Below, piece after piece: positions 4,381 to 55,621 of a DNA stretch of 64,000 bases. Location of the stretch: assembly GCA_019247515.1 (NCBI GenBank), contig JAFAOS010000333.1, positions 1 to 64,000 on the forward strand, in the 5' to 3' direction. The position numbers were made by a program, and so were the translations under genes. Origin of the DNA: Chloroflexota bacterium (lineage in GTDB: Bacteria; Chloroflexota; UBA6077; CF-72). The notes under the pieces were generated by a model. That model worked only from the letters and a program-made list of their open reading frames with translations, was not told where the DNA came from and did no database searches. Numbering within the stretch: position 1 is the stretch's first letter; the number at the start of each line of letters is the position of its first letter.

Positions 4381-4399
4381 ATTCGTTACCTTAGATCCT

Positions 4400-6026: not shown

Positions 6027-6038
6027 GCGTGAGGCGCC

Positions 6039-8730: not shown

Positions 8731-8893
8731 CATCAAACCCAGGGGGTTCCAGGGGTTTCCTCCAGCCCATCGACAAGAGACAGGTCTTCGCCCCCCGGTC
8801 CCTATACGGCTATCGCCATCCAGGGATTGGCGGAATGCCCCACCTGGCGGCAGACTGCGGTGGCGTCGTGCCAGCGACGTAACCCCCTTTCTC

Positions 8894-8921
8894 AGGGCGG
8901 CCCTCCCTGCGGGGCCGCCCT
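8894..8921 (+). terminator. hairpin between the two-component operon and the sigma-factor operon
   Basis: AGGGCGGCCC (8894-8903) pairs with GGGCCGCCCT (8912-8921) around an 8-base loop. CCCTTTCTC precedes it; the downstream side lacks a T-run. The position, 163 bases after the regulator stop and 54 before the sigma gene, fits a terminator or a leader structure. Confidence 0.5.
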
Positions 8922-8975
8922 CGATCCCGCCGAGCGAGCGGGTGTAAGAAAATCGTCTCACGGTGGTGTTTCTCC

Positions 8976-10657: not shown

Positions 10658-11571
10658 ACATCCCTGCCGTCGAAGCGGTGGGACTCCGCAAGGAGTACGG
10701 CCGCAAGGTTGCGCTTCACGGGTTGGACCTGACGGTCGAGCCCGGCGAGGTCTTCGGTTTTCTCGGACCCAACGGCGCGGGCAAAACGACGACCGTCAAG
10801 ATCCTGCTGGGGCTGGTCGCGCCAACGCGGGGCGAGGCTCGTCTGTTCGGCCGGCCAGTCGGCGATGCGGAGGCTCGCCGGCCAGTCGGCTATTTGCCCG
10901 AGAACTTTCGCTTTCACGACTGGCTGACCGGCGTCCAGCTGCTCGATTTCCACGCTCGACTCGCGGGACTGAGTCGTACCCAGCGCGAGCGGCGCATTCC
11001 CGAAGTCCTCAACCTCGTGGGACTGCACGGCCGCGGCGACGACCGCATTCGCGCGTACTCGAAAGGCATGACCCAGCGGATCGGCCTGGCCCAGGCCGTC
11101 ATCCACGAGCCAGACCTGGTGCTGCTGGACGAGCCGACCTCGGCGCTCGACCCGGTCGGACGTCGCGAAGTGCGCGACCTGATCCGCTCATTGCGCGCCG
11201 AGGGCATGACGGTGTTCCTGAACTCGCATCTGCTGAGCGAGGTCGAGATGGTGTGCGATCGCGTGGCGATCGTCGACCGCGGACGCGTGGTGCGTTCGGG
11301 CCGTCTGGAGGAGCTGCTCGGTGGGCTGCCCGAGCTGCGGATCAGCGTCGATCGTCTCGATCAGCCGCTGCTCGAGATTATGGCCCGGCACGGCCGGGTG
11401 CTGGACGCCCGAGATAGCAGCGTGGTGCTCGGGGTGGACGACGTCGAAGTCGCGGCGCGGCTGAGCGAGGCGCTGGTGCGCGCCGGCTACTGCCTGTACG
11501 CCATGGTGCCGTCGCACCAGTCACTGGAGGACGTTTTCGTCAGCCTGATCGAGACCACGAGCGATCGCTGA
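10654..11571 (+). CDS. ABC transporter ATP-binding protein (ABC-2/CcmA type)
   Basis: 305 residues if translation begins at CTG 10654. Walker A is GPNGAGKTTT, the Q-loop region is GYLPENFRF, the signature is YSKGMTQRIGLAQA, Walker B is LVLLDEPTSALD and the H-loop is NSHLLSE. The C-terminal 80 residues are of the DrrA/CcmA kind. Family proteins begin about 8 residues before the V/I-x-x-L-x-K-x-Y-G strand; here that point falls at CTG 10654, overlapping the anti-sigma stop as CTGA. The nearest ordinary starts are GTG 10567 (87 bases inside the upstream gene) and GTG 10678 (removes the first strand). The likely permease partner is at 13148, beyond an opposing gene. Confidence 0.9.
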   Translation: MNIPAVEAVGLRKEYGRKVALHGLDLTVEPGEVFGFLGPNGAGKTTTVKILLGLVAPTRGEARLFGRPVGDAEARRPVGYLPENFRFHDWLTGVQLLDFHARLAGLSRTQRERRIPEVLNLVGLHGRGDDRIRAYSKGMTQRIGLAQAVIHEPDLVLLDEPTSALDPVGRREVRDLIRSLRAEGMTVFLNSHLLSEVEMVCDRVAIVDRGRVVRSGRLEELLGGLPELRISVDRLDQPLLEIMARHGRVLDARDSSVVLGVDDVEVAARLSEALVRAGYCLYAMVPSHQSLEDVFVSLIETTSDR

Positions 11572-12516
11572 TCAAGCGGCGAACTGGCTGAGTTCCGCGT
11601 TCGCGGGTACCTCGGCCTGGCAGTCCATCCACACCACCTCGGGTGGGCAGCCGAAGCGCAGCGGGATGGTGTGCCCCAGACCGGCGGTGATGTGCAGCAG
11701 CCCGGCTTCCAGGCGCTGGAACCCCGAGGCGATGATGATCCGCGGATCGACGCGCAGCGTGTAGGGCGCGCCAACGACCGGCAGCTTGACCTGACCACCG
11801 TGCGTATGTCCGGCCAGGATGAGATCGGCTCCCAGGGTCTCGGCCTCGAACGCCAGATCAGGTTCGTGGATCAACGCCAGGCAGGCCTCGCCCGGTCGGC
11901 GGCCATGCATGGCGGCGGCCATGTCCGCATGGCCGGCCCACGCCGAGTCGCAGCCGGCGATCCATAGCGTCTGGCCGTGCGTCTGAATGCGCGCGCCCTC
12001 GTTGTGAAGGACGGTGATGCCTGCCGCGCGCAGGGCGTCGGCCATCGCGTGCGCCTCGTGCTCGCCGTCGCTTTTGAGGTCGGGCCCGAACAGGCTCAGG
12101 ATCGCGCCGATCACTCGGCGGAGGCCGCGCCGATGCTGTTCGCGGATGCGGTGGGGCGCGGGGGCATTGTGCTCGTGGTTGCCCAGAATGACGAAGGTGC
12201 CCAGGCGCGGCCTGACCTGCTTCAGGATGTCGACGAGCAGCGGGATGTCCTGGACCTTTTCGCACACGTCGCCGGTGACGCACAGCAGGTCGGGCGCAAG
12301 CTCCTGCAGCGCCTCCTTCTGAACGCGCAGGAGCCGCTGGTCGCCGCGCCGCACGTGCAGGTCGCTGATGTGCAGGATCGAGAGCGTGGCGGGCCAGCCG
12401 GCGGGCACCGGCAGCCGGTGGCGTTTGAAAACAGGTCGGTACGGCTCGCCGAGGACGGCGTAGCCCAGCAACATGAACGGCAGCAATGGAACGAGCGCAA
12501 GCGCGAGGAATGCCAT
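11572..12516 (-). CDS. metallophosphoesterase (YkuE-like, membrane-associated)
   Basis: 314 residues from ATG 12516. It starts with a hydrophobic stretch (about 1-22, MAFLALALVPLLPFMLLGYAV), so it is exported or membrane-anchored. Calcineurin-type metal motifs follow in order: HISDLHVRRGD (D-x-H), CVTGDVCEK (GD), LGNHEHN (GNHE), LIHEPD and AGHTHGGQ (GHxH). Relatives hydrolyse phosphodiesters such as UDP-linked sugars or lipids. The open frame continues another 172 codons upstream, but that stretch is translated repeat DNA and is not part of the gene. It sits tail to tail with the ABC ATPase, with no gap between the stops. Confidence 0.9.
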   Translation of the reverse strand: MAFLALALVPLLPFMLLGYAVLGEPYRPVFKRHRLPVPAGWPATLSILHISDLHVRRGDQRLLRVQKEALQELAPDLLCVTGDVCEKVQDIPLLVDILKQVRPRLGTFVILGNHEHNAPAPHRIREQHRRGLRRVIGAILSLFGPDLKSDGEHEAHAMADALRAAGITVLHNEGARIQTHGQTLWIAGCDSAWAGHADMAAAMHGRRPGEACLALIHEPDLAFEAETLGADLILAGHTHGGQVKLPVVGAPYTLRVDPRIIIASGFQRLEAGLLHITAGLGHTIPLRFGCPPEVVWMDCQAEVPANAELSQFAA

Positions 12517-12582
12517 AGGACGAACCAGAATTATGCTGAAAAGCTTCAGCGGCTCGGCTTGGAAACGGTTGAGAAGGTGTGT

Positions 12583-13015
12583 CGAGCCCCGTTCCAGGGG
12601 GAGAGACGGAGTTTCCCCAGAGGGGACCCAAGGGAGAGACCGGGGTTTCCCAGAGGGACCATAGGTGAGAGACGGAGTTTCCCCAGAGGAGACCCAAGGG
12701 AGAGACGGGGGTTTCTCAGAGGGACCCAGGGGAGAGACGGAGTTTCCCAGAGGACTCCATAAGTCGCGCGCCAGCGAGCGATGAAACTGTTCCCTTCCTT
12801 TGGGATCGTCACGAACGATGTCGACGGACATTTTCGTGGGAGGGGACCCTCGGGAGAGACGGGAGATTTCCCCAGAGCGGACCCATGGGGTGAGACGGGG
12901 TTCCCCAGAGGACTCCTCGCGTCGCACACGCGCCAGCGAGCGATGAAACTGTTCCCTTCCTTTGGGGTCGTCACGAACGATGTCGACGGACATTTTCGTG
13001 GGAGGGGACCCTTGG
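12583..13015. repeat. repeat array 1 (short GAGAGACGGAGTTTCCCCAG units plus two longer palindromic units)
   Basis: Two interleaved layers. From about 12600 to 12755, a unit of about 30-35 bases is repeated some five times (GAGAGACGGAGTTTCCCCAG then AGGGGACCCAAGG, with drift). Two near-identical units of about 84 bases lie at about 12768-12850 and 12929-13012. They share CGCCAGCGAGCGATGAAACT, then GTTCCCTTCCTTTGGG, CGATGTCGACGGACATTTTC and GTGGGAGGGGACCC. The long unit reappears in diverged form at 25.2 kb and, inverted, at 45.3 kb. No gene lies between 12517 and 13147; open frames here are translated repeats. Confidence 0.9.
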
Positions 13016-13147
13016 GGAGGCACGGGGCGCATATGTCAACCGAGTTGAGTGTTTTGGAGTGTCGACAAGAGTGATGTCACGCGTAATCGGCCGGGGGTGT
13101 CGCACATTCGCCCCGACCGGTGTTCTACTCCCATACAGGCCCGCCTC

Positions 13148-14032
13148 TTGAGACCGCGTTACATCTTCGAGATCGCCCGCTTCACCTTGCTCGAAGCGAT
13201 CAGCCGCCGGCTGATCCTCGCGGGCGTGCTCATCAGCCTGCTGTTCATCGGCCTGTACGCCCTCGGCTTTCACTTCGCCTACGACCGAGCCCTGGACACC
13301 GGCTCGTCCGCCGAGGCGCGACTCACGCTCGGCATCGCGTTCGCGCTGCTGACCCTGTTCGGCGTCTACGTCGTCAATTACCTGGCCAGCTTCCTGGCCC
13401 TGTTCCTGTCCGTCGCCGCGGTCTCAGGCGAAGTTGACTCGGGAACGCTGCACGCCCTGCTGGCCCGCCCGCTGCGCAGGTCCGAGTTCATCGTCGGCCG
13501 CTGGCTTGGTTACGCGTGCATGCTGAGCGTGTACATCGTGGTCATGACCGGCCTGGTGCTGTTGATCGCCCAGACGGTCGCCGGCTACACGGTGCCCGAC
13601 CCGCTGCCGGCGCTGCTGCTCATGCTCCTCGAAGGCGTGCTGTTGCTGACCCTCAGCCTGTTCGGCAGCACGCTGCTGCCGACACTCGCCAACGGCATCG
13701 TCGTCTTCACGCTGCTTGGACTCGCCTGGTTGGCGGGCATCATCGAATTTGTCGGCCGGCTGTTGGCTGCGGCGCCAGACTCCACGGCGGGCGACGCGCT
13801 GCTCAACATCGGCACCACCGTGAGCCTGGTGTTGCCCAGCGACGCGTTGTGGCGCGGCGCATCCTATTATCTGCAGTCGCCCTCGGTGCTGGCGGCCTTC
13901 GGCGCCGCGCGCGGCGGCATCCCCTTCTTCTCGACCTTGCCGCCGTCAACGCCGCTCATCTGGTGGTCGATTGGCTACGTGGTGGTCGTGCTCGGCGGCG
14001 CGATCCTGGCGTTTCGAGCGCGCGACCTGTGA
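13148..14032 (+). CDS. ABC-2 type transporter permease
   Basis: 294 residues from TTG 13148 (family N-termini begin just before IFEIARFTLLEAISRR; GTG 13097 is an upstream alternative). Six hydrophobic helices are visible, among them LILAGVLISLLFIGLYALG, FALLTLFGVYVVNYLASFL, a TGLVLLIAQTVAG segment and a final WWSIGYVVVVLGGAILAF. The cytoplasmic loop GEVDSGTLHALLARPLRRSEFIVGR is the typical contact region for the ATPase. It probably pairs with the ATPase at 10654; the intervening phosphoesterase and repeat array look like a later rearrangement. It ends 34 bases from the convergent dnaA. Confidence 0.88.
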   Translation: MRPRYIFEIARFTLLEAISRRLILAGVLISLLFIGLYALGFHFAYDRALDTGSSAEARLTLGIAFALLTLFGVYVVNYLASFLALFLSVAAVSGEVDSGTLHALLARPLRRSEFIVGRWLGYACMLSVYIVVMTGLVLLIAQTVAGYTVPDPLPALLLMLLEGVLLLTLSLFGSTLLPTLANGIVVFTLLGLAWLAGIIEFVGRLLAAAPDSTAGDALLNIGTTVSLVLPSDALWRGASYYLQSPSVLAAFGAARGGIPFFSTLPPSTPLIWWSIGYVVVVLGGAILAFRARDL

Positions 14033-14033
14033 G

Positions 14034-14063
14034 TTATGCACAGGTCGCGACCGAGTTATCCCC
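14034..14063. promoter_or_regulatory. two DnaA-box-like 9-mers downstream of dnaA
   Basis: TTATGCACA (14034-14042) and TTATCCCCA (14055-14063) each differ by one base from TTATCCACA. They fill the 34-base gap between the convergent stops of the permease and dnaA. Two sites in so short a gap, with no AT-rich stretch, do not make an origin; they could be a DnaA-titrating or autoregulatory site, or chance. Confidence 0.4.
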
Positions 14064-14066
14064 AGG

Positions 14067-15548
14067 CTAATCCCCAGCGGCGCCGCCGGCCTTGATCACG
14101 TCGCGGATGCCGCGAATGGCGGCGCGGCTCTCACCGTCCCTGGCGACGTCGGCGATGATTTGCTTGAGCGCGTGCAGCACGGTCGTGTGATCGCGGTTCA
14201 GCAAGCGACCGATGTCGGGCGTCGACAGATGCGCGTCCTCGTGCAACAGGAACATCGCGATCTGTCGCGGCCGGACGACTTGCTTGTGCCGCGACTTGCC
14301 CTTCAGCTCGTCCGCGTTGATGCCGTAGAAGCGGGCCACGGCCAGCAGGATCGCCGTCGGGGTCACGCTGCCGCTCGACGGGCCTGGCGCCACCAGGTCG
14401 CGCAGCGCGCGCGCCGCCAGTTCGACCGTCACCGGCTGCTGCATGTGGCGCGCGTGCGCCAGCAAGCGATTGAGGCTGCCCTCGAGCTCGCGAATGTTGC
14501 TCTGCACCTTCTGGGCGATGAAGTCGAGCACGTCCGGCGGCACCGCGGCAGGTGTCGAGGTGCTGACCTTGGAGCGCAGGATGGCGATGCGAGTTTCGTA
14601 GTCCGGCGGCTGAATGTCGGCGATCAGGCCCCATTCGAAGCGCGAGCGGAGGCGATCCTCCAGGATGGTCATAGCGCGTGGCGGACGATCGCTGGACAGC
14701 ACGATCTGACCACCCGCCTCGTGGATGGCATTGAACGTGTGGAAGAACTCCTCCTCGGTGCGCTCCTTACCGGCGATGAACTGCACGTCGTCGATCAGCA
14801 GCACCCGCGCGTTGCGGTACTTCAAGCGGAAATCGTCGGTGCGGTGCTGGCGAATCGACTCGATGAGCTCGTTGGTGAAGGTTTCCGACGAAACGTAGAT
14901 CACGTCGCTGCCGCGCGCGGTGACCGCGTGGCCGATGGCGTGCAACAGATGGGTCTTGCCCAGGCCCACCCCGCCATACAGGAACAGCGGGTTGTAGGCG
15001 TTGCCGGGGTAGTCGACGATCGCCAACGAAGCCGCGTGCGCGAGCCGATTCGACTGCCCGACGACGAACGAGTCGAACGTGTACCGCGCGTTCAGCCGCG
15101 ATTTCGGCTCCCTCTCCCTCTGGGAGAGGCTTGATCCAGGGGGTGAGGGCGACGGTGACGGCTGCTGGAGCTGCTCGAGTTGAGCCAGCAGCGGCGCCGC
15201 GCGCTGGCGCGGCAGATGGGTTTCGAGGCTGGCCGGCCGTTCCTGGCCGGGACAGTACTCGACGCGCACGGGCGCACCAATCAGCTCGGCGACGACGGAA
15301 TGGATGCGCGAGCTGAGCTTGCCCTCCAGCCAGGGCACGTGGAATGGATTGGCGACGGCGACGCGAATGACGCTGGCGCCAGGGTCATAGGCCACGCCGC
15401 GCGTCTCGCGCAGGTAGGTGTCGAAGTGAGCTTGCTCCGCGTGCAGCTGCAGGCGCGACAGCACGCGTTGCCAGAGCTGGGTCGCTTCAGGTGCCGGTGC
15501 CTCGGACGAACGGGCAGGGGCGACCATCGTTAGGGCAGGGCTGGACAT
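14067..15548 (-). CDS. dnaA: chromosomal replication initiator DnaA
   Basis: 493 residues from ATG 15548. Domain I (about 22-98, LWQRVLSRLQLHAEQAHFDTYL) is followed by a Pro/Ser-rich linker (about 99-152), AAA+ domain III (Walker A GGVGLGKTH near 192-200, Walker B LLIDDVQFIAG, arginine-finger region LRSRFEWGL) and the DNA-binding domain IV with the signature DHTTVLHALKQI. It initiates replication at oriC. Part of the linker (about residues 134-148) is encoded by a dispersed palindromic repeat. No dnaN or recF lies beside it: a Sua5-type gene is upstream and an ABC permease downstream. The next ATG (15527) is an alternative start. Confidence 0.97.
   Translation of the reverse strand: MSSPALTMVAPARSSEAPAPEATQLWQRVLSRLQLHAEQAHFDTYLRETRGVAYDPGASVIRVAVANPFHVPWLEGKLSSRIHSVVAELIGAPVRVEYCPGQERPASLETHLPRQRAAPLLAQLEQLQQPSPSPSPPGSSLSQREREPKSRLNARYTFDSFVVGQSNRLAHAASLAIVDYPGNAYNPLFLYGGVGLGKTHLLHAIGHAVTARGSDVIYVSSETFTNELIESIRQHRTDDFRLKYRNARVLLIDDVQFIAGKERTEEEFFHTFNAIHEAGGQIVLSSDRPPRAMTILEDRLRSRFEWGLIADIQPPDYETRIAILRSKVSTSTPAAVPPDVLDFIAQKVQSNIRELEGSLNRLLAHARHMQQPVTVELAARALRDLVAPGPSSGSVTPTAILLAVARFYGINADELKGKSRHKQVVRPRQIAMFLLHEDAHLSTPDIGRLLNRDHTTVLHALKQIIADVARDGESRAAIRGIRDVIKAGGAAGD
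15111..15149. repeat. CTCTCCC/GGGAGAGG palindromic repeat inside dnaA
   Basis: CCTCTCCCTCTGGGAGAGG (15111-15129), followed by a short spacer and GGGGGTGAGGG (to 15149), has the layout of the palindromes at 19669-19712 and 59641-59699. Here it lies in frame in the linker of dnaA. Similar CTCTCCC-type intergenic palindromes are widely scattered in many bacterial genomes. Confidence 0.8.
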
Positions 15549-15711
15549 TGGATGGGGACGGATTCTAGGGACCGCGGGTGCCGCTTGCCGGGTACCGGCG
15601 CTGCGCGATCCACTTGGAAATGAGCGCCTGCCGGAGCACTGTGACCCCCGGGCCGCGGGATGTGACGCGCTCCCAGAAGGAGGGGCCTCAGACGTGTGAT
15701 CATGAGCCGCG
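15549..15711. other. divergent dnaA/sua5 intergenic region
   Basis: 163 bases between divergent starts, so promoters for both genes should lie here. I see no clear -35/-10 pair, no DnaA-box cluster and no AT-rich unwinding element, which argues against oriC at this spot. GAAGGAGGGG at about 15675-15685 is purine-rich but too far from ATG 15712 to be its ribosome binding site. Confidence 0.45.
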
Positions 15712-16761
15712 ATGACCCGCCGACGGCCCGAGCGCAAGACGCGTGTGCTGGCCGCCGACGCGGCCGGCGTCGAAGCGGCCGCCGCACTGCTGCAGGCCGG
15801 CAGGTTGGTCGCCTTCCCGACCGAAACCGTCTACGGCCTGGGCGCCCACGCCCTGGATGCCGCCGCCGTCGAGCGAATTTTCGAGGCCAAGGGCCGTCCC
15901 GCCGACGACCCGGTCATCGTGCACCTGGCCGAGGCTGCCGAGCTCGACCGGGTGGCGAAACCGAGCCCGACGGCGTGGCAGCTTGCCGACGTGTTCTGGC
16001 CTGGTCCGCTGAGCCTGGTGTTGCCCAGACGACCCGAAGTGCCCCTCCAGGTGACGGCGGGCCTGGAGACCGTCGGCGTACGCGTCCCGTCCCACGCCGT
16101 GGCCAACGCCCTGTTACGCGCCAGCGGCCTGCCCGTGGCGGCCCCCAGCGCCAACCTCTTCGGCCGGCCAAGTCCGACCACCGCCCAGCACGTGCTCGAC
16201 GACCTGAACGGACGCATCGAGGCCGTGCTCGACGGAGGGCCGACGACGGTGGGCCTCGAATCCACGATCGTGGATCTGACCTCATTCTCGCCGCGCCTGC
16301 TCAGGCCCGGCGGCGTCTCCGCCGAGGCGATCGAGGCCGCCCTGGGCATCCACCTCCACACGGCCAGTCCGTTCCGCGACGGTCCGCAGGCCGCCCCTGG
16401 CATGCTGCCGGTCCACTACTCGCCGCGCACGCCGCTGACGCTCATTACGGGCCGCGCGGCTCGCTCGCGACTCGCCCACGAGGTGGCCCTGGAGCTCGAC
16501 CGGGGTCGACGTGTGGGCGTGATCGCGTTGGCCGAGGACCTGTCGATGTTGCCCGATGCGGTGGTGACCGCCGAAGTGGGAACCTGGGAAAACGCCGCCG
16601 GGTCCGCGTCGCGACTGTTCGAGGCCGTCCGCAGCCTCGATCGCGCCAGCGTGGACGTCATCCTCGCGCGCGACCTGGCGGATCCCGAGACAGGGCTCGG
16701 ACGGGCGCTGGCGGATCGCCTGCGCCGCGCCGCCCACCGCGTGCTTGACAGTCGAGACTAG
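15712..16761 (+). CDS. tsaC: L-threonylcarbamoyladenylate synthase, Sua5 two-domain type
   Basis: 349 residues. The YrdC/TsaC domain (about 10-200) shows the KxR...SxN pattern: GRLVAFPTETVYGLGAHAL, FEAKGRPADDPVIVHL, FWPGPLSLVL, VGVRVPSH, PVAAPSANLFGRPSPT and GLESTIVDL. The C-terminal Sua5 domain (about 225-349) begins after HYSPRTPLTLI. It makes threonylcarbamoyl-AMP from threonine, bicarbonate and ATP, the first step of the tRNA t6A modification at position 37. Twenty bases separate it from the Rrf2 regulator, so they are probably co-transcribed. Confidence 0.95.
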   Translation: MTRRRPERKTRVLAADAAGVEAAAALLQAGRLVAFPTETVYGLGAHALDAAAVERIFEAKGRPADDPVIVHLAEAAELDRVAKPSPTAWQLADVFWPGPLSLVLPRRPEVPLQVTAGLETVGVRVPSHAVANALLRASGLPVAAPSANLFGRPSPTTAQHVLDDLNGRIEAVLDGGPTTVGLESTIVDLTSFSPRLLRPGGVSAEAIEAALGIHLHTASPFRDGPQAAPGMLPVHYSPRTPLTLITGRAARSRLAHEVALELDRGRRVGVIALAEDLSMLPDAVVTAEVGTWENAAGSASRLFEAVRSLDRASVDVILARDLADPETGLGRALADRLRRAAHRVLDSRD

Positions 16762-45281: not shown

Positions 45282-45630
45282 GGGTCCCCTCCCACGAACA
45301 TAGTGCCGTCGACACCTGTACTGACGACTCCACAGGGAGGGAACAGTTTTCATTGCCCGCCGGCGGGTGTGGGACCGATGGCGTCCTCGAGCCCACCCTG
45401 GGTGCCCCACTGGATACACAAACGTCTGGCCCCACCTTGGGTCCCCTCCCACGAGAATGTGCCGTCGACACCTGTACTGACGACCCCACAGGGAGGAACA
45501 GTTTTCATTGCCCGCCGGCGGGTGTGCCACCCATGGCGTCCTCGAGGGCCACTATCGTCAAGCCCACCCTGGGTGGGCCCAGTGGACACACAAATGTCTG
45601 GCGCCCACCCTGGGTCCCCTCTGGGGTACA
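45282..45630. repeat. repeat array 3 (inverted copies of the array 1/2 family)
   Basis: Two units of about 95 bases (45282-45374 and 45440-45540), read on the minus strand, match the long units of array 1: TGAAAACTGTTCCC, GTCGTCAGTACAGGTGTCGA and TCGTGGGAGGGGACC. On the plus strand they show GGTCCCCTCCCACGA, GCCGTCGACACCTGTACTGA and CAGTTTTCATTGCCCGCCGG. Between and after them are fragments (GCCCACCCTGGGTCCCCTC). Array 3 fills the 412-base gap between the CHR gene and the PPOX-type gene; no gene is seen in it. Confidence 0.9.
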
Positions 45631-45636
45631 CCACCG

Positions 45637-46059
45637 TCAGGCACTCGGCGGCCGCACCAGGCGGTCGATCTTGATGCGGATCAGCACCCGGTTTTCCGTC
45701 TCCATCCGCTGACGAAACGCGTCGGCCTGGGTATCCTGCCCGCGGCGGCCGTAGTACGCCGCCAGCAACGGCATCGCCTCCGGCAGGCGGGTAATCGAAG
45801 CCTGACCCTCGACGTGCAGCCACGGCCCTGGCCAGCGCTCGTCCATCAGACACAGCACCGCCCGGGGGTCGCGCGTCAGGTTGTACGTCTTGGCGTTCCT
45901 GGCCCGCGTCGCGGTCAGCACGTCGCCGTTGTCGTCGGCGATGACGGCCATCGGGGACGACTGCAATCCGCCGTCCTTGCGGCGAGTGATGAGCACGGCG
46001 CGGGTCGTCTTCGCCGCGAACTGCTTGAGCATGTCGAGGTCGCTGGTTGGAAGCGGCAT
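45637..46059 (-). CDS. PPOX-class flavin/F420-dependent oxidoreductase
   Basis: 140 residues with a split beta-barrel fold: FAAKTTRAVLITRRKDGGLQSSPMAVIAD, VLTATRARNAKTYNLTRDPRAVLCL and VEGQASITRLP. Members of this size bind FMN or F420 and reduce small molecules. ENRVLIRIKIDRLVR is the usual last strand. F420 use is suggested by the subfamily but unproven. Its start is divergent from the winged-helix gene; downstream it runs into repeat array 3. Confidence 0.87.
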   Translation of the reverse strand: MPLPTSDLDMLKQFAAKTTRAVLITRRKDGGLQSSPMAVIADDNGDVLTATRARNAKTYNLTRDPRAVLCLMDERWPGPWLHVEGQASITRLPEAMPLLAAYYGRRGQDTQADAFRQRMETENRVLIRIKIDRLVRPPSA

Positions 46060-46165
46060 ATCGGCTATTGAAGCCTACCCGCGGCATTCAACCAGGATGT
46101 AACCCGAGCAGCGACGTCAACACCCCAGACCATGCGTTACTTTGAGCCAAGGGGCATCGTCGAAC

Positions 46166-46546
46166 ATGCATTCTTTGGCGAGCGTTCAACACATCGATCC
46201 AACTCCGATGCTTGTCGCACGCGCGTACGACCGCGTCATGCGCATCGCCGACCTGGAGCTGGACCCGGATTGGCACGCGGTGAGCCGCGGCGGCCGCCAG
46301 ATCACGCTGACCCGTATCCAGTTTCAGCTGCTGGCGTTGCTCGCGAAGCATGTCAACCAGGTGGTCGGCTATGACGAGCTGGTGGCCGAAGCCTGGGGTC
46401 ATGCCGACGAGCAGTCCCCGTCGAGCCTGGTCAAATCGCACATCTCGCGCTTGCGCCGCAAGCTCGGCCTGGCGCGGCTCGGCCCGCTGGTAATCAAGGC
46501 CTCCCCCGGCCAGGGCTACATGCTGCGGCTGCGCGCGACGAGCTAG
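46166..46546 (+). CDS. stand-alone OmpR-type winged-helix DNA-binding protein
   Basis: 126 residues from ATG 46166 (TTG 46142 and ATG 46208 are alternatives). The only domain is an OmpR/PhoB output domain: ADLELDPDWHAVSRGGRQITLTRIQFQLLALLAKHVNQVVGYDELVAEAWG, then SSLVKSHISRLRRKLG and SPGQGYMLRL. There is no receiver before it, so activity is not set by phosphorylation of this chain. It stops 5 bases from the convergent signal-peptidase fusion and could regulate the nearby secretion block. Confidence 0.85.
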   Translation: MHSLASVQHIDPTPMLVARAYDRVMRIADLELDPDWHAVSRGGRQITLTRIQFQLLALLAKHVNQVVGYDELVAEAWGHADEQSPSSLVKSHISRLRRKLGLARLGPLVIKASPGQGYMLRLRATS

Positions 46547-46551: not shown

Positions 46552-47859
46552 TCAGGGTTGGTCGGGCGCGCCGACACTTGCCGCCCGCGCCGTGTTGACG
46601 CTCGGGCTCCCGGATTGGAGCACGCTCATGTCTGCGAGCGGCCAGTAGCGCACCCACGCGCGCCCCACCAGGTTCTCGACTGGCACGAACCAGCCGAAGT
46701 GCGAATCCAGACTTTCGGGCCGATTGTCCCCCAGCACGAAGTAGCTGTCCGGCGGCACGGTCGCGTACTCGCCGGTTGTCGGAAAGCGGTAGTCAGCGGC
46801 GAACTGTATGTAGGACTCGGCCAGCGGCGCGTCGTTCACAAAGACGTGCCCGTCGTGTACCGCCACCCGGTCGCCCGGCAGACCGATGACGCGCTTGATG
46901 TAATCGACCCCCGGCTCGACTGGCGAATCGAAAATGGCGATGTCGCCGCGCTGGGGTCCGCCAAACATGTAGTCGATCGAACCCTGGTGTGTGGTCGGCA
47001 GCAGGTGTTCCAGCGGAGACCCGTCAACATGCAGGTACGCCAACCGGTTGACGACCAGCACCTGGCCACTGCTGAAGTTTGGCTGCATGCTGATGCCTTC
47101 GACGCGGAAGTTCTCGACTGCCGTCCGTCCGGCGAAAATCAAGACTCCGGCCACGATCGCCGCCTGGACGAGCTCGCCACCGACCTGCAAACCGCGTTCG
47201 GTATTCGCCCGAGCGAAGCGACCGAGCCGCGTTCCCATCGATGGGCCGGCCGGCGGCGCGCCTGTATCTCGAACCTCACCCGGTGGCGCGGTCTGCTCCG
47301 CGGGAATCTCCGCGAGGCCGAGGTCACACAAGCGCAGCAGTGTTGTTACGCAGCACCGGACTCCGTGGCGTCGGACCAGATCCTGGATGCTGCGCTGCCC
47401 GTCGACGTCCAGAAACAGGCGAATCGCCGCGCGCGTCAACGTGATCTCCAGCTCGTCGCGTAGCTCGGGTTGGACCACCAGGCGCGGCACCGCCGTTGGA
47501 GCCCGCAAGCGGCTCATCCAACCCTGCAGCGGGCTGGTGCTGAGTCGCTGGATGCCTCCGACAAAGTCCCAGTCGGCGTCAATTTCGGCCGTGAGTGTTG
47601 CGGAGCCATCGAAGAATTCGAAATTCCCGCGTTCGCTCACGCCGCTGACGATCAGCTCCAACGCGGACAGACCGTGCTCGTCGTCGATGCCCGCCGCGAC
47701 GATCCGGCCGTCCTGTAGTGACAACTGGCCCACCCAACGCTCGTTGGAGATCAACAGGTCGCCGGTCTTGCCGAGGTCAGCCAGAAATTGCGCCAGCGGC
47801 GCGAAATGAATGCTGGAGAACGAGCCGGTCAGGTCCGCCATACCTGGGGGACGCGTCAT
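46552..47859 (-). CDS. lepB: DUF4388-signal peptidase I fusion protein
   Basis: 435 residues from ATG 47859. N-terminal DUF4388-like domain (about 5-105: LTGSFSSIHFAPLAQFLADLGKTGDLLIS, GQLSLQDGRIVAAG, GNFEFFDG), a middle segment with LFLDVDGQRSIQDLVRRHGV (DUF4388/PATAN-associated type), a membrane helix (about 228-245, LVQAAIVAGVLIFAG), then the S26 peptidase: catalytic Ser in VEGISMQPN, Lys in DYIKRVIGLPGD, and box E in FVLGDNRPESLDS. It should cleave signal peptides outside the membrane, with a cytoplasmic domain of the kind found in signalling proteins. The neighbouring divergent operon encodes several exported proteins. Confidence 0.92.
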   Translation of the reverse strand: MTRPPGMADLTGSFSSIHFAPLAQFLADLGKTGDLLISNERWVGQLSLQDGRIVAAGIDDEHGLSALELIVSGVSERGNFEFFDGSATLTAEIDADWDFVGGIQRLSTSPLQGWMSRLRAPTAVPRLVVQPELRDELEITLTRAAIRLFLDVDGQRSIQDLVRRHGVRCCVTTLLRLCDLGLAEIPAEQTAPPGEVRDTGAPPAGPSMGTRLGRFARANTERGLQVGGELVQAAIVAGVLIFAGRTAVENFRVEGISMQPNFSSGQVLVVNRLAYLHVDGSPLEHLLPTTHQGSIDYMFGGPQRGDIAIFDSPVEPGVDYIKRVIGLPGDRVAVHDGHVFVNDAPLAESYIQFAADYRFPTTGEYATVPPDSYFVLGDNRPESLDSHFGWFVPVENLVGRAWVRYWPLADMSVLQSGSPSVNTARAASVGAPDQP

Positions 47860-48429
47860 GAGCGCCGACTCACTATAAACCGCGTGCACTGCGACTGAGT
47901 GACCCAGGGCGGATACTCAACGGGACTGCAACATTGTGCACTTCCCCCGACGGGTACGGAGTCGTATGGTGGGCAGGGACTATCCGACCCACAACCCGCA
48001 CCAACAAGCCACAGGCTCCTGACCCCCGAGCGCTGTGCGAAGAAGCCTGCACGCTATCTCGCACTTGCGAGAGAGCCCCTGCGTTGTCAACTCGAGGAGG
48101 TCGGTTCGGCACACTTGTGCTAATTCCGCATTTGCGTTCTGCCACGCACAATCGCACGGCCGGAGGGTGGCGGCCAGCCTGGCGCCACCCTCAGGTTGTG
48201 GCCGCGCCGGACAGCTCCATCCGCGGACCGCCCACTCGAGCAGGTTGAAGGAGTGAACGTAGAGCGCGCCCGCGAGAGGGGGCCCCTCTGGGCCTCACCG
48301 AAAGAAGCCCCCAATCGCCAACGTCCCAGGGTCCAGGGCCTGATGGGCTCAGTCAGTGGTGTCGCGCGGTAGCCCGACGCTTAGCCGCTGCTTTTTCCCC
48401 GGAATCCCGGAACAGGAGCATTTTGAGCA
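47860..48429. other. 570-base divergent intergenic region with four hairpins
   Basis: This separates the signal-peptidase fusion from the secreted-protein operon and must carry promoters for both; a TATAGT word lies just upstream of ATG 47859 on the minus strand. Hairpins: TCTCGCA-CT-TGCGAGA (48057-48072), GCACA-CT-TGTGC (48109-48120), GAGGGTGGCG with CGCCACCCTC (48163-48192) and AGAGGGG-G-CCCCTCT (48275-48289). The first two share a GCA-CT-TGC-like tip. No gene and no known riboswitch is recognised. Confidence 0.6.
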
Positions 48430-49929
48430 ATGACGCTACTTAGAGGCAAGATTGCCCAGCGGTCAGCGGCCGCGCTGTCGGCCGCCGCGCTCGTCGGGGC
48501 AATTGCCTTGCCGAACACAGTCATGGGTCAGTCGATCACGCTGAATCGCTGCCCCGCCGACGGCTTCGGCCGCTCTACCTCGGTGTGCACCACGCAGATC
48601 GGGGTACCGGTCAACGCGCCGGACGCATCGCAGAGCGGCACGGTCGACACCTCGGCCAGCACGTCTCAGAGCAACAAGGTCAGCCAGGACGCCAGCAACC
48701 GCAACAGCGCCGACGCGCTCGACGTCAATGCCCAGTCGCAGCACTCGACGCAGGTCGGCGGCGACCAGAGCAACCGTCAAAGCAACGATCAGGACGTCAA
48801 GTCATCGGCCGACACCGCGGCTTACGGCGCCCCGACGATCGCTGTTGGTCCATCGGCCAAGATTTCCCTCGGCCTGGTCCAGAGCTCCGACGCGAGCGCC
48901 AATGGTAACGCGACGGTCGACTCGTCCACCGGTCAGGCTGGCGGCGACGCCAACGCGATCGGCAACGTGAACGCCAGCGGTGGTAACGCCGGCGCCGGTT
49001 CGTCGGCGGATGGCGGCGACGGTAACGGCAACACGCACGCAGCGTCGCTGGCAGCTCAGCTGGGCAGCGGCAACGGCCTCGCTTCCAGCGACTCCACGGC
49101 CGGTGATGGCGGCAACGCCCGCACCAGCGGTGGCAACGCGAGTTCCGAAGGCGGCGACGGCGGTGACGGTGGCCGTGCCAGTAATGGCGCCAACGGCAAC
49201 GGTGCGACCGCTGCTGATCTCGCCGCGAGTCTGTCCGCCGCCATCTCGGGCAAGTCCAAGGACGGTGCGAGTTCGGCGAGCGATGCGACCAGCGGCGGTG
49301 CCAGCACCTCCGCCGACAGCGGTGCCGCCAAAGGCGGTGCTGGCGGGGCTGGTGGTGATTCGAGCGCAACCTCCGGTGGCAACACTTCCACCGGCGGCGA
49401 TGGTGGTGACTCGAGCGCTTCTACCCCAGGTGGAACGGGCCACGCGAGCAACTCCACTGGCACCCTCAACGCCAACGCCTCCGGCACCAACGGCAACGCG
49501 CTGTCCAGCGCAGATGGCGGCACCTCCAAAGGTGGCGACAATGCTGGCAACGTCGCAGCTGGCGGCAACGGGACCTCGGGCATGAACTCGAGCACCGCGG
49601 CAGTGGTGGGCGGCACGTCGCTGAACAGCTCGACGTTCAGCTTCTCGCAGACGGCGGGCGACACGACCGCCACTGGCGGGGCTGTGACGAACAACGGTTC
49701 CGCGACATCCAGTCCGTCGACGTCGGCGACCAACACTGGTTCGAACGCCAGCACGCAGTCGCAGACCCCGACGCAGACCGGCGGCACGGGTCCCCTGAAC
49801 CAGACCCAGAACGCGCAGTCCGGGCAGACGTCCAACCCGTCCAACGCGGCCGCTACCAAGGCGAGCGGCAAGCTGTCTCAGACCGCGACCAACAACGGAA
49901 GCGCGAAGGACAGCGCGACATCCAAGTAA
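48430..49929 (+). CDS. secreted Gly/Ser/Asn/Ala-rich low-complexity protein
   Basis: 499 residues. N-terminal signal peptide (about 1-34: MTLLRGKIAQRSAAALSAAALV and a following ALPNTVMG, then Q). A short Cys-containing part (RCPADGFGRSTSVC) follows, then about 430 residues of drifting motifs rich in G, S, A, N, T and D (for example GGDGGDGGRASNGANGN, STGQAGGDANAIGN). The C-terminus is Gln/Thr/Asn-rich. No catalytic motif or LPxTG. Composition resembles surface fibre, sheath or amyloid-like proteins, but no family is recognised. First gene of the block ending at 56051. Confidence 0.85.
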   Translation: MTLLRGKIAQRSAAALSAAALVGAIALPNTVMGQSITLNRCPADGFGRSTSVCTTQIGVPVNAPDASQSGTVDTSASTSQSNKVSQDASNRNSADALDVNAQSQHSTQVGGDQSNRQSNDQDVKSSADTAAYGAPTIAVGPSAKISLGLVQSSDASANGNATVDSSTGQAGGDANAIGNVNASGGNAGAGSSADGGDGNGNTHAASLAAQLGSGNGLASSDSTAGDGGNARTSGGNASSEGGDGGDGGRASNGANGNGATAADLAASLSAAISGKSKDGASSASDATSGGASTSADSGAAKGGAGGAGGDSSATSGGNTSTGGDGGDSSASTPGGTGHASNSTGTLNANASGTNGNALSSADGGTSKGGDNAGNVAAGGNGTSGMNSSTAAVVGGTSLNSSTFSFSQTAGDTTATGGAVTNNGSATSSPSTSATNTGSNASTQSQTPTQTGGTGPLNQTQNAQSGQTSNPSNAAATKASGKLSQTATNNGSAKDSATSK

Positions 49930-50063
49930 TTCTTCTCGTAGGGCTACCGAATACACCGGGAGTCCGAGGTCGGCCTCATCGAGGCAAGGGAGGCCGACCT
50001 CGCTTCCCACTCCGTCGGCAGCCTCCCACTTCCGACACTCCAGAAAGGAACCGCACTTCGAGC

Positions 50064-50621
50064 ATGGCACCGTTCAACAACGCTCGCCTGGCGTGGAGCG
50101 TCGCCTGTGCGTCGCTTGCCCTGTGGGCGACGAGTGTCCCCCTGACCTGGGGACAGATTTCGGCGGATGCCAGCCGCATGCTCGATGTCACCCCCACCAC
50201 CACGTTCGAAGACGCTCAGCAGACCGATACCACGGCCACGCCGTGCCCGCCGGCGCCCGCCGCACCCGCGGTGGCGGCGCTGCCACCCTCGATCGCCAGC
50301 CTGCTGCCGACGCCACTTCCGGCCGCGTCCGCGCCACCTTCCGCGAGTAGTGGCGCAAGTCAGGGGTCGTTCCACCTGTGCGGCCCGGACGCCTCGGCCG
50401 CGCAAGCCATCGAGCAACTGATCGGCGGCCGCAGCTTCAGCGCCAGTCTGAACACCACGGCCGACGGCTGCGCGGATCTGACGGTGCAGCCAACGTCGTC
50501 GGTTGCCAGCGGCAGCGCGACCTCGCAGCTCAGCGTATCGCTGGGCTCCGGTCAGAACCTTCAAATCCAGATCACGTCGCAGAACGGCGCGACGCACGTC
50601 AGCATCGGGTCGGGGACATAA
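50064..50621 (+). CDS. small secreted protein with Pro/Ala linker and Cys pair
   Basis: 185 residues with an AAAGGAA about 12 bases before ATG 50064. Signal peptide (about 1-31, ending SVPLTWGQ), a Pro/Ala/Thr-rich spacer (about 55-100), then a compact domain with two Cys about 30 residues apart (FHLCGPDAS, DGCADLTV) and a Ser/Gln-rich last strand (SQLSVSLGSGQNLQIQITSQNG). No family recognised. It is followed after 10 bases by the giant protein gene, so they are certainly co-transcribed. Confidence 0.82.
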   Translation: MAPFNNARLAWSVACASLALWATSVPLTWGQISADASRMLDVTPTTTFEDAQQTDTTATPCPPAPAAPAVAALPPSIASLLPTPLPAASAPPSASSGASQGSFHLCGPDASAAQAIEQLIGGRSFSASLNTTADGCADLTVQPTSSVASGSATSQLSVSLGSGQNLQIQITSQNGATHVSIGSGT

Positions 50622-50631
50622 AGGAGGACTG

Positions 50632-53600
50632 ATGCGAGCTCGACTTCATTCGTTGCGGCACGTGAAGACCGCGCGTCAGGCCGCGTACACCGCGCTGGCG
50701 ACGCTGGTTGCCATCCTGGTGGTCTTTGCACCGGTTGAAGCGTTGCCCAACGCGTTTTCGGCCTCGCCGAACCAGGCGAGCACATCCGCGCCGGCGAGTG
50801 GCAAGTCGAGCTCATCGTCCTCCTCCTCCTCCTCCTCCTCGTCGTCCTCATCGTCGACGTCGTCCTCGAAGTCGGCGAAGTCAGACTCGAGCGCGGCCTC
50901 GAAGTCCTCATCGTCGACGACCTCGAGTTCGAACACGGGCAACCAGTCACCGCCGTCCAGAACGAACGAGTCCAGACCGTCGGCAAGCGGGTCGACGACT
51001 TCGACCGGCGCGTCTTCGACGACCACGACGGCAAAGTCGTCACCACCTCCGGCCGCGACGCACGCGGCGGCGACGCAAGCGGCCACGACCACGAAAGCTT
51101 CGGCCACGAGTACCACGGCGACCACTGGCAAGACTCCGGTCGCGGCGGCGTCGCCGGTCAAAACCACCACGACCAGCGCCAAGGCGTCACCCGCGACGGC
51201 TTCGAAATCCGCGACGACGTCGACAACGTCGTCTTCTGCGACCACGACTACTGCCGTCGCGGCGACGACCTCGTCGAGCACAGACACCAAATTGGCTGCC
51301 AGCGGCGAATCCGCGCCGACGTCGCCGTCGGCCTCCGCCAGTACACCACAGGCAAGTCCTTCGGCCGCGTCGACGACCACCTCCAGCGCGCAGGCCAGTC
51401 CATCGTCGACCAGCACCTCCGGCGCGCAGGGCAGTCAATCCTCGTCGACCAGCACCGCCGGCGCGCAGGTCACCTCGAGTCCCTCCACAAACACCGACAG
51501 CGCCGTGGCCAGTCCCAGCAGCACGCCAGTGGTTCCCGCGACCTCCACCTCGGTCACCGCCAGCAGCACGACCACCAAGACGGCCGCCGCTACGTCGGTG
51601 ACGACCGACAGTACGGCCACAACCGTGGCGACCGGTTCCGCTGTCGCAACCGCCACCGCCGGCGACTCCGCGGCTACCGGTGACACGAACGCTGGTTCAG
51701 ATCCGGCGCCGACTCCACCAGTCACGCCTGTCGCGACGCCATCCACATCTCCCGCGTCGTCCGTTGGTGCCGCCGCGGGAGTCAACGCTCCAGACGTCCC
51801 GGCCGCGACGCCATCCGCATCGCCCGCGTCGTCCGTTGGTGCCGCCGCGCCAGCTGTCCAGGCGGCGCCTTCGGCAACCGCCCAGGCGGCCGCGGCCGCC
51901 GATCCACCCGCCTCGCCTGCGCCCGCCGCGACGGCCCAGGCGGCTGCACCCGCCGCGCCCGCTGTCAACGCCGGCAGCGGCGACGCCACCGGCCTCGCCG
52001 GCCAGGTCGACACCACCGACTCCAACGTCCAGATCGGCGCGGTCGCGGCGGCGGGCGGCGCCGGTGGCTTGACGGTCGCCAACTCGCACTCCACCACGAT
52101 CGGCGATGCGAGCGCCGCCAGCTCCAGCTCTGGCGTTGCCGTCGCCCTGGCGCCCACGCCGGATGCCGGCGCCACGCTCACCGGCGTCACAACCGCCCAA
52201 TCTGGGGCAGCATCCGCGGTCGGCGCGGCCGTCGCCAACGACGTCCGCAACACCGATGCGGCGGCGGTCCTCGTCCAGGGCGCGAACCAGGCCCCGGTCA
52301 ACGTCGTCTCCAATGCCAACGTGGCGATCCAGGACACCGGCGCCGCGGGCGTAACCTCTGGCGCCGCCTGGGCGGTCGCCGCCGGCGCCGCGGGCGCGCC
52401 CAGCAACGTCTCGACCCCGGTGACCACCGGCGCGGCGCCGACCAGCGCCGCCGAATCAGCCACCGGCATCCAGGCCAACAACTCGCTAAGCAACGCGACT
52501 TCGTCAACGGTCAATGTCGCGGGTGGACCTGGCAACACCGCCCCCATCAACGTCACGCCCGCGCAGTCCGTCTCGAACACCACCGGTGGCTACGCGACGA
52601 CGATCTCCGGGGCAGCGTGCGCGGGAGCCACGTGCGCTTCGCCGGCCGGCGCCACGGCAAGTGGCGCCACCCAGGCCTCCAGCGGCGCGTCGCAAGCGCA
52701 GGGCGTCGTCGCGCAGAACAACGTCCAGACCAACGCGAATGTCGCGGTCGACGTCGGCGGGCAAAACTTTGCGCCGATCACCGTCGTTGTCAACTCCATC
52801 ACCCGTATCTTCAACTGGGGCACGGCTTCGGCCACCTCCGGCGATGCCGTTGCCAATGGGTCTTCCGCCGGCGGCAGCACTGCCAGCGCGGTCGGTGCGG
52901 CAAGCGGCTCCTCCGAGGCTACTGGCGCCGAGGTGGCCAACTCGGTCGCGTTGCACTCGTCGGCGGCCGTCCACGTCGCCGGCGACAACTACAGTCCGAT
53001 CAACGTCCTCTTGAACCTGGCCGCGAGCATCGTCAACTGGGGCGTCGCTACGGCAACCTCCGGTGACGCGCAGTCGACCGGATCGGGCGGTGGCGCCGCC
53101 ACCAGCGGCGCGGCAAGCGCAACTGGTCTGCGGGCGGTCAACCTGGTCAGTCTCTGGGCGGACGCGTCGGTCGACATCGACGGCAACAATTACGCGCCGA
53201 TCTTCATTCAGGTCCTGTTCAACACCAACGTCGCGAATGTGGGCTACGCCGGCGCCAGCACCGGTAATGTCGCCACCTCGAGCGGCGCCACGAGCAATGG
53301 TTCGACGCCGCAATCCACCTCGGGGAGCTCGTCCGTCGGCTCCTCCTCATCCGGCGGGGCCGCGAGCCGGGCACAGGGCGGCGCCGCGGTCGCCATTAGC
53401 AACTCGGTCAATGTCGCCGCGGTCTCCAATCAGATGTCGAACGCCAATGGCGGCGGTTCCGTGGCTACCACGGCTGTGGCCGAGATGCTGACCAACTTGC
53501 CCCCGGGCCCGTGGAATCCATTCGTGCAGCAAAACCTGCCGGATACCGCCGCGCCGCCAGTGGTCGCCGGTATGAGCTCCAGCTCGGGTAATTCAGTCGC

Positions 53601-54636
53601 CGTCGGCCTTCAATCCAACATCGCGGCCATGAATGGCCAGATCGCGGCATGCCGTGATCCAGGCGTGAGCTGCACGGCCGTCAACTCCAACACCACGTCC
53701 ATCAGCATGAGCGACCTCGCGCATAATCCAGCGACCAACAGCAGCGGCGCCGCGCGCGGCTCCGGCAACCAGGACGGCGGCGGGTCTGACCCGGGCTTCG
53801 GACCGGGCGGCACCTCGTCCAGCAGCGGCTTCAGCGGCGTCAACGCGACGCCGACGCCAAAAACGACGTCTCAAACCAGCAACTCGGGTGGCGACGACGC
53901 GGCGTTCGATCAAGGCCCGGATGCATCCTCCGATGACGGTGGCGGTGGTGGCAACGGTGGCGCGGGCGGCGCCGCACGCCGCTTCTTTGGAGCCAATGCC
54001 ATCGTCCGCGGCCCGGGCGTGAATGGCCAGGTCGTGCTCGTCGATCTGTTCGACCAGTGGCCCGGTCGGCGCCTGCCGCCAATGCCCAACCCGCTCGACA
54101 GCCGCGTGTCCTCATCCACGATCAGCGCCACGCTGGCCGGTTTCCCCGGAGTTGACGAGCTGCCGCTGCCCATGCCGGGCGCGGCCGACGCCTCGGGGCC
54201 GGCGCCAGCGCGGGCGGCAGTCGCCTCCGGTTCGGGCCTGCGCCGACCACTCGGTCCAGCCTCACTGGACCTGCAGGCGGCTGATGGCGACGACCTGTAT
54301 CCGCCGCTCGCGCTGGTGGATGTCGATCTCTGGTCGCGCTGGCCGCAAGCCGAATTCATGCCGATGCCGATGCAGGCGCTGCCCGCGGCGGCTGCCGCGG
54401 TGGACGCTTCGCCGGCGGTGGTCGTTCCGGATGCGGCCACTCCGCTGCCCCCCGACAATGGCGCGCTGCCGATGCAGCTCGACCTTGCCGCGCTGCTTTC
54501 GATGTTGACCATTACGCTGCGCGTCGCCATGCGGCACGGTCAGAGCCTGCTGGCGGTCGTGCGCTCGTGGTTCAACCAGCGACGCCGCGCGCAGATCCTG
54601 CTCCGCCTGGCGTCTGGCATGTTGCGACTGTGGTGA
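50632..54636 (+). CDS. giant secreted repeat protein with Ser/Thr stalk and C-terminal hydrophobic tail
   Basis: 1334 residues. A perfect AAGGAGG lies four bases before ATG 50632. Parts: signal peptide (about 1-44, TALATLVAILVVFAPVEA); a Ser-run (from about residue 60, coded by TCC repeats) and a Ser/Thr/Ala region to about 480; five repeats of 70-80 residues (about 535-890) with a core such as VDVGGQNFAPITVVVNSI, VHVAGDNYSPINVLLNL, VDIDGNNYAPIFIQVLF; a Gly/Ser/Asp-rich stretch; two copies of a VDLFDQWP/VDLWSRWP motif followed by PMP; and a C-terminal hydrophobic-basic tail (LAALLSMLTITLRVAM, then WFNQRRRAQILLRL). The repeats look like beta-rich surface modules. No family with known function is recognised. 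Confidence 0.9.
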   Translation: MRARLHSLRHVKTARQAAYTALATLVAILVVFAPVEALPNAFSASPNQASTSAPASGKSSSSSSSSSSSSSSSSSTSSSKSAKSDSSAASKSSSSTTSSSNTGNQSPPSRTNESRPSASGSTTSTGASSTTTTAKSSPPPAATHAAATQAATTTKASATSTTATTGKTPVAAASPVKTTTTSAKASPATASKSATTSTTSSSATTTTAVAATTSSSTDTKLAASGESAPTSPSASASTPQASPSAASTTTSSAQASPSSTSTSGAQGSQSSSTSTAGAQVTSSPSTNTDSAVASPSSTPVVPATSTSVTASSTTTKTAAATSVTTDSTATTVATGSAVATATAGDSAATGDTNAGSDPAPTPPVTPVATPSTSPASSVGAAAGVNAPDVPAATPSASPASSVGAAAPAVQAAPSATAQAAAAADPPASPAPAATAQAAAPAAPAVNAGSGDATGLAGQVDTTDSNVQIGAVAAAGGAGGLTVANSHSTTIGDASAASSSSGVAVALAPTPDAGATLTGVTTAQSGAASAVGAAVANDVRNTDAAAVLVQGANQAPVNVVSNANVAIQDTGAAGVTSGAAWAVAAGAAGAPSNVSTPVTTGAAPTSAAESATGIQANNSLSNATSSTVNVAGGPGNTAPINVTPAQSVSNTTGGYATTISGAACAGATCASPAGATASGATQASSGASQAQGVVAQNNVQTNANVAVDVGGQNFAPITVVVNSITRIFNWGTASATSGDAVANGSSAGGSTASAVGAASGSSEATGAEVANSVALHSSAAVHVAGDNYSPINVLLNLAASIVNWGVATATSGDAQSTGSGGGAATSGAASATGLRAVNLVSLWADASVDIDGNNYAPIFIQVLFNTNVANVGYAGASTGNVATSSGATSNGSTPQSTSGSSSVGSSSSGGAASRAQGGAAVAISNSVNVAAVSNQMSNANGGGSVATTAVAEMLTNLPPGPWNPFVQQNLPDTAAPPVVAGMSSSSGNSVAVGLQSNIAAMNGQIAACRDPGVSCTAVNSNTTSISMSDLAHNPATNSSGAARGSGNQDGGGSDPGFGPGGTSSSSGFSGVNATPTPKTTSQTSNSGGDDAAFDQGPDASSDDGGGGGNGGAGGAARRFFGANAIVRGPGVNGQVVLVDLFDQWPGRRLPPMPNPLDSRVSSSTISATLAGFPGVDELPLPMPGAADASGPAPARAAVASGSGLRRPLGPASLDLQAADGDDLYPPLALVDVDLWSRWPQAEFMPMPMQALPAAAAAVDASPAVVVPDAATPLPPDNGALPMQLDLAALLSMLTITLRVAMRHGQSLLAVVRSWFNQRRRAQILLRLASGMLRLW
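50813..50841 (+). repeat. TCC trinucleotide microsatellite in the giant protein gene
   Basis: TCATCGTCC is followed by an uninterrupted run of TCC triplets to about 50840, then GTCGTCC variants. It encodes a Ser tract. The unit is three bases long, so slippage would change length but not frame. Confidence 0.85.
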
Positions 54637-54658
54637 ACTGTGGAGGTCCCGTTATCAA

Positions 54659-55621
54659 ATGCTGTTGAAACTTCGAGCCCATCACTTGACCTGGCCGCTC
54701 CGATTCACGAGCGCGCTGTTCGCGGCCCTGCTGGTGGTTGCGCCGCTTGCCGTGAGTCCCGCGGCCGCGCAGAGCCAGCCAGCACCGGCGCAGAGCCAAT
54801 CGGCGCCAACGCCCGCCGACCGCATCGACCTGGTCGGTCTGGTCACCCAGCAGCCCAAGCCCGACAGTCCACCCAACGACGTCCAGTTCCAGGCGACGGT
54901 GAACTACCACCTGGAATCAGCCGCCAGCGGGACCGTCTTGCTGTTCCTGTTCGAAAATACCGCCAGCCAGTCAACCCAGGACTCCTCCAATGCCATTCCG
55001 ATCCAGCGCGGCAACGGACAACTGGTGCTGGACATCGACTACACGCTGAGTCAGGATGTCAAGACCCTGACCCTCGTGGCGGCAGTGTTCAAGCCCCAGC
55101 AGAAGCTTGCGGCCTGGGTCTCGACCAATCCGATCGACATGGCGCCCTGGCCCGGCCGCGTCTTCTTCGAAAAAGCGATGACCGATCGATTGGCCAACGA
55201 TTACTCCGCCGCCGACCAGGAGCTCACCCTGGCCATCCAGGAGTCACCGGACACGGGCAACTACTATTACTGGCGCGGCGACACGCGCATCCGCCTGCAG
55301 GACTACTCCAACGCCCTTGCTGACTTCAACAAGTCGATCGAGCTGATGCCGAAGGATCGCCCGAGCCGCGTTGGCCGCGGCATTGCCGAGCTGTGGCTGG
55401 ATAATCCGCAAGCCGCCGTGGACGACCTGACCACCGCCATCCAGGCCGTCAGCACGCCTGACCGCGTCTCTGCCTGGGCGTTTCGCGCGCGCGGTCTGGC
55501 CTACGCCAGCCTGGGTCAGTCGCAGAGTGCCGTCTCCGATTACAACCAGTACCTGACCCTGACCCCCGATGCCCCCGACCGCGACCAGGTCACCGGTTGG
55601 ATCGCCAACCTGAGCGGCTGA
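54659..55621 (+). CDS. exported TPR-repeat protein
   Basis: 320 residues, 22 bases after the giant gene. Signal peptide (about 1-38, ending SPAAAQS), a Gln/Pro/Ala spacer, a beta-rich domain (about 50-160) and at least three tetratricopeptide repeats (about 170-310: FFEKAMTDRLANDYSAADQELTLAIQ, YYYWRGDTRIRLQDYSNALADFNKSIEL, and AFRARGLAYASLGQSQSAVSDYNQYL). Such repeats bind partner proteins; it may help assemble the secreted proteins encoded upstream. Confidence 0.88.
   Translation: MLLKLRAHHLTWPLRFTSALFAALLVVAPLAVSPAAAQSQPAPAQSQSAPTPADRIDLVGLVTQQPKPDSPPNDVQFQATVNYHLESAASGTVLLFLFENTASQSTQDSSNAIPIQRGNGQLVLDIDYTLSQDVKTLTLVAAVFKPQQKLAAWVSTNPIDMAPWPGRVFFEKAMTDRLANDYSAADQELTLAIQESPDTGNYYYWRGDTRIRLQDYSNALADFNKSIELMPKDRPSRVGRGIAELWLDNPQAAVDDLTTAIQAVSTPDRVSAWAFRARGLAYASLGQSQSAVSDYNQYLTLTPDAPDRDQVTGWIANLSG

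Follow-up and report, generated by a model that had tools for sequence, protein, structure and literature searches.

Introduction

The type I signal peptidases of bacteria (MEROPS S26; TIGR02227; LepB, SipS) combine a Ser/Lys dyad with the SM and GDN boxes and consist of an N-terminal membrane helix followed by the protease domain. They are usually viewed as constitutive housekeeping enzymes whose cytoplasmic part is a short tail at most, and in known members the part that lies N-terminal to the membrane helix is cytoplasmic. SipW of Bacillus subtilis belongs to the endoplasmic-reticulum type and has no catalytic lysine. Encoded together with its clients (tapA-sipW-tasA), it is needed for the export of TapA and TasA and additionally has a second role (PMC4238804, PMC6334530).

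Response regulators such as PatA, PixG, PixE and LsiR carry an N-terminal DUF4388 domain. This Pfam family, which we take from InterPro to correspond to PATAN, has to our knowledge no established biochemical function. Cyanobacterial PATAN proteins are proposed to work through contact with a partner, as in the case of PixE with PilB1 (PMC7690835).

Here, we describe a gene in which a DUF4388 domain and a signal peptidase I are joined. It is located in a 64,000-nucleotide stretch of DNA (the window) of a metagenome-assembled genome (MAG) of a soil Chloroflexota bacterium. In comparison to other type I signal peptidases, the fusion has about 220 additional residues, expected to be cytoplasmic (DUF4388 plus winged helix), and is linked to a conserved cluster of genes for secreted proteins. 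SipW is the nearest functional analogue, as both peptidases are encoded with exported surface proteins, which are presumed clients in the case of the fusion. In contrast to SipW, the fusion is of the Ser/Lys type and does not belong to the SipW type because Lys322 is present; SipW, in turn, has no DUF4388 domain, and the presumed clients of the fusion are unrelated to TapA and TasA. Unlike the PATAN response regulators, the fusion has no receiver domain (no Response_reg match in Pfam at E-values up to 1), and its output, a protease, would lie across the membrane from the DUF4388 domain. It is a known kind of enzyme in a rare, genus-level fused form.

Results

The fusion is encoded on the minus strand in a frame of 435 codons without a stop (46552-47859). 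Relatives begin with the motif M-x-E-L-S-G, which aligns with Met7 of this frame and makes the ATG at 47841 (429 aa, 46552-47841) the probable start in place of the ATG at 47859 (435 aa). On either side of the junction, codon statistics resemble those of protein-coding DNA, with a dip confined to the linker and the stretch just before it. In a second species of the genus (G002, C60:1595-2881), a homologue with 46% identity shares the architecture of the fusion from end to end within a single frame. The original prediction that a DUF4388 domain is joined to a signal peptidase I was therefore borne out by this homologue together with the domain search, in which both families scored above their cut-offs. 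The DUF4388-S26 protein is a real domain fusion at the level of the genus.

The C-terminal half matches Peptidase S26 (PF10502) at 46642-47169 (minus strand, residues 231-406) with 136-138.8 bits (cut-off 22.9) and the NCBIfam model TIGR02227 (sigpep_I_bact) with 131 bits (cut-off 47). Structures of signal peptidase I, including 1B12, are its matches in the PDB (best E-value 3.6e-18). As predicted, the catalytic motifs are intact: Ser257 (codon 47089-47091) lies in box B, GISMQP, and Lys322 (codon 46894-46896) in box D, YIKRVIGLPGD; both are conserved in the G002 fusion, and the GDN box is present as well. Directly before the protease domain, a single membrane helix (residues ~223-249; 47113-47193, minus strand) forms the sole hydrophobic stretch with a Kyte-Doolittle value above 1.4 and aligns with the N-terminal helix of canonical signal peptidases. 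By its motifs, this half is a complete type I signal peptidase of the Ser/Lys type and would be expected to be proteolytically active. With other signal peptidases of the genus, among them the housekeeping copies, the domain shares ~50-56% identity.

The N-terminal half begins with the DUF4388 domain (PF14332; 47599-47829, minus strand). Its score in the whole protein, 25.8 bits, is just above the Pfam cut-off of 25 and rises to 27.6-27.7 bits when the N-terminal half is scanned alone; the match spans residues 11-87, so that the domain ends near residue 90 and not at the predicted residue 105. The G002 copy reaches 21.2 bits, below the gathering cut-off, while the Pfam scan matched DUF4388 in all 13 aligned relatives. 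The segment of 100 residues that had been noted before the membrane helix is present, but it resolves into two parts. Residues ~125-186 (47302-47487, minus strand), aligned in 11 DUF4388 proteins and accompanying DUF4388 in most relatives within the genus, probably form a MarR-like winged helix. In hhalign, this segment matched a MarR protein of the same genome with 68%, a value that is not decisive, PqqD with 30% and OmpR with 1%. A PqqD-like motif had suggested a RiPP recognition element; this candidate was rejected, since the control comparison of MarR itself with PqqD already gave 46%, and the Pfam PqqD family had no match in the winged-helix proteins scanned. The second part is a linker rich in Pro, Ala and Gly (residues ~187-222; 47194-47301, minus strand), at which the coding statistics drop and whose length differs between the two fusion-bearing species. 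A PDB search with the N-half profile gave no credible match, and an AlphaFold model of this half alone (mean pLDDT 38) was not used for interpretation.

By analogy with known signal peptidases, the N-terminal half would be expected on the cytoplasmic side. This location fits other proteins of the genus, in which the module precedes a membrane helix or an MFS transporter. Within the phylum, several membrane-anchored proteins with DUF4388 (G000:C361 and C512; G001:C644; G051:C12) likewise join the domain, mostly with the winged helix, to membrane proteins. Their partners are MFS transporters or 3-keto-disaccharide hydrolase-like domains and not proteases; in G000:C361, and similarly in C512, DUF4388 is followed by a membrane helix and then by the hydrolase-like domain. 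The module has the look of a cytoplasmic unit that can be transferred among membrane proteins, with signal peptidase as one partner. Among the MFS transporters with DUF4388 and winged helix, the module is N-terminal in the third member of the genus (G001; L053 2793-4592) and C-terminal, in reversed order, in G051 (L057 3477-5426).

Among the matches listed for 400 Chloroflexota genomes (up to four best candidates scored per genome, with matches spanning both halves ranking first), two genomes had a match across both halves, and the same four exported-protein genes lie beside both fusions, which answers how often the fusion occurs and next to what. Plasmids contained no match covering both halves. 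DUF4388 N-halves of the fusion type were found only in the three genomes of the genus among 29 sampled genomes of the class. In G001 (a MAG, 89% complete), neither the fusion nor the first or fourth gene of the neighbouring set (g1, g4) was detected.

A tree built from the peptidase domains pairs the two fusions as sisters (support 93/88) and groups them with a third peptidase of the second species, G002:C6 (89/96). This group adjoins two housekeeping copies, G000:C473 and G001:C447 (81/85); the tree tool puts none of the three branches in its starred class. G000:C473 lies outside the fusion group, and the fusion genome therefore has a separate general signal peptidase. The branches of the fusions are longer (0.92 and 0.54) than those of the housekeeping copies (0.30 and 0.08), as expected for a specialised paralogue. 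By its position in the tree, the fusion is a genus-specific, fast-evolving paralogue distinct from the housekeeping enzyme. The nearest paralogue, G002:C6 (L048 5474-6586), has its own N-terminal extension of a different kind, with a weak OsmC-like match below the cut-off (E-value 0.08). In G001, part of a signal peptidase domain stands by itself (C646; L096 2550-2747) and is possibly a broken paralogue.

Divergent to the fusion, four genes follow on the plus strand. The first, g1 (48430-49929), encodes an exported protein of 499 aa rich in Ala, Gly, Ser, Thr and Asn, with a signal sequence recognised by eye; its G002 homologue is 47% identical and likewise divergent to the fusion. It is followed by g2 (50064-50621; 185 aa, exported, with a conserved C-terminal domain of ~85 residues), g3 (50662-54636; 1324 aa, rich in Ala, Ser and Thr, with internal repeats and a hydrophobic, basic C-terminal tail) and g4 (54659-55621; 320 aa, an exported protein with a TPR match). 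No Pfam family scored above cut-off for g1, g2 or g3. Homologues of g2 (by tblastn), g3 and g4 are present in five genomes, G002, G004, G028, G024 and G019; the identity of g4 is 67% in G002 and 38-44% in the other four. In G002, the linkage is split across two contigs: the contig with the fusion (C60) breaks inside g1, whose 3' part is found at the end of C458, which carries g2, g3 and g4 in identical order. On the far sides of the G002 fusion (~12 kb) and of its g4 (10 kb), none of the other genes has a counterpart at the same place in the window. A stand-alone OmpR-type DNA-binding domain (46142-46546) is convergent with the fusion and ends 6 bases from its stop; it is not found beside the G002 fusion.

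Altogether, the set or recognisable parts of it occur in six genomes of the class, those named and the fusion genome itself (window 48430-55621; L120 3748-10178; L121 ~9915-16243; L122 6805-13683; L093 ~3560-10630). No signal peptidase was seen beside the cluster in G004, G028, G024 and G019 (stretches of 13-19 kb), and a LuxR-type regulator adjoins g1 in G028 and G024. Since these four genomes have the cluster without a fused peptidase, the fusion is not required for export of its products; judging from this distribution, the four-gene set predates the fusion. A candidate fusion-specific cleavage motif (between G and Q) in g1 and g2 was dropped, as a similar A-Q site is found in G004, which has no fusion.

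The fusion and g1 share an upstream region of ~590 bp (47842-48429). No riboswitch or other known RNA was found in this region at Rfam cut-offs. A search for sigma-70 promoters and terminators found none. A comparison of the upstream regions of the two fusion species gave no clear conserved DNA element.

Discussion

The best explanation of these results, to which we give an even chance, is that the fusion is a specialised signal peptidase for the products of g1-g4, positioned or gated by its cytoplasmic module. The DUF4388 and winged-helix module would sit in the cytoplasm and one helix would serve as membrane anchor; the Ser/Lys protease domain would face outward and remove signal peptides. 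Gene order suggests that the main clients of the enzyme are probably the four exported proteins encoded in the divergent set next to it. The module may act by recruitment or by gating, most likely through protein-protein contact that recruits, positions or gates the enzyme, and the processing of the low-complexity secretome would thereby be coupled to an internal cue. If DUF4388 is indeed PATAN, the partner contact described for PATAN proteins favours recruitment over DNA binding. The dedicated role is in agreement with the arrangement of both fusions, which are divergent from g1 followed by g2-g4 while the flanking genes that were read differ, and with the joint lack of a detected fusion, g1 and g4 in G001. 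Among the matches listed, only two genomes have the fusion, and the linkage is therefore based on two instances, of which the one in G002 is divided between two contigs. Against the dedicated role, no cleavage-site signature distinguishes g1-g4, as the A-Q site in G004 is similar.

A serious, though unlikely, competitor is a second general signal peptidase that gained its DUF4388 domain by chance and lies beside the secreted genes by descent, with no special relation to its substrates. It would account for the occurrence in only two closely related genomes among the matches listed and for the export of the cluster in other genomes without the fusion; moreover, DUF4388 modules are frequent in the genus (~4-5 per genome) and attached to several membrane proteins. 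What speaks against chance is that the fusion and g1-g4 were kept together at an identity of only 46%, although the surrounding genes that were read differ.

We regard it as distinctly unlikely that the protein is bifunctional, with a DNA-binding winged helix that makes it a membrane-anchored, CadC-like regulator of the divergent cluster, the peptidase serving as its output or sensor domain. The profile similarity to MarR, the divergent orientation with a common upstream region and the LuxR-type regulator next to the cluster in G028 and G024 are all consistent with such a regulator, and SipW of Bacillus has been described as bifunctional (PMC4238804). However, a 68% profile match is not decisive, the two upstream regions have no clear conserved DNA element in common, and the same winged helix is present in MFS transporters and stand-alone proteins and therefore may be a protein-contact element. 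Still less probable, in our view, is a single protein that uses its cytoplasmic half to sense an internal cue, to control the transcription of a dedicated group of surface proteins and to license their processing as well. If true, synthesis and maturation of this secretome would be tied together across the membrane by one protein.

Other DUF4388 proteins of the genus resemble receptors, with module, membrane helix and extracytoplasmic domain in this order, and the peptidase domain of the fusion could by this likeness have lost signal peptide cleavage and serve a DUF4388 receptor in extracytoplasmic sensing or regulated proteolysis; the intact catalytic boxes and the ~50-56% identity to the signal peptidases of the genus make this very improbable. 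That two genes were joined by an assembly error or a frameshift is a practically negligible explanation and was rejected. In its favour, the genome is a MAG in 579 contigs, with a contamination of 6%; against it, an independent MAG (G002) contains a full-length homologue, the frame is continuous and codon use is coherent.

If the reading as a dedicated, module-controlled signal peptidase is true, cells could regulate or target the removal of signal peptides from within. The fusion would also offer DUF4388, a domain little known biochemically, a measurable enzymatic output, and g1-g4 represent an undescribed set of surface-protein genes conserved across a class of Chloroflexota. In the open-access subset of the literature, we found no link between DUF4388 and signal peptidases and no type I signal peptidase fused to an N-terminal cytoplasmic domain, which is no proof of novelty.

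Two further features of the window lie apart from this locus. A dispersed repeat of ~100-155 bp, outside the called genes at 45290-45650 and 12769-13003, gave no matches in the two other members of the genus or in G004 and has 46 matches in this genome. The first 128 nucleotides of the window (1-128) are the 3' end of a 16S rRNA gene.
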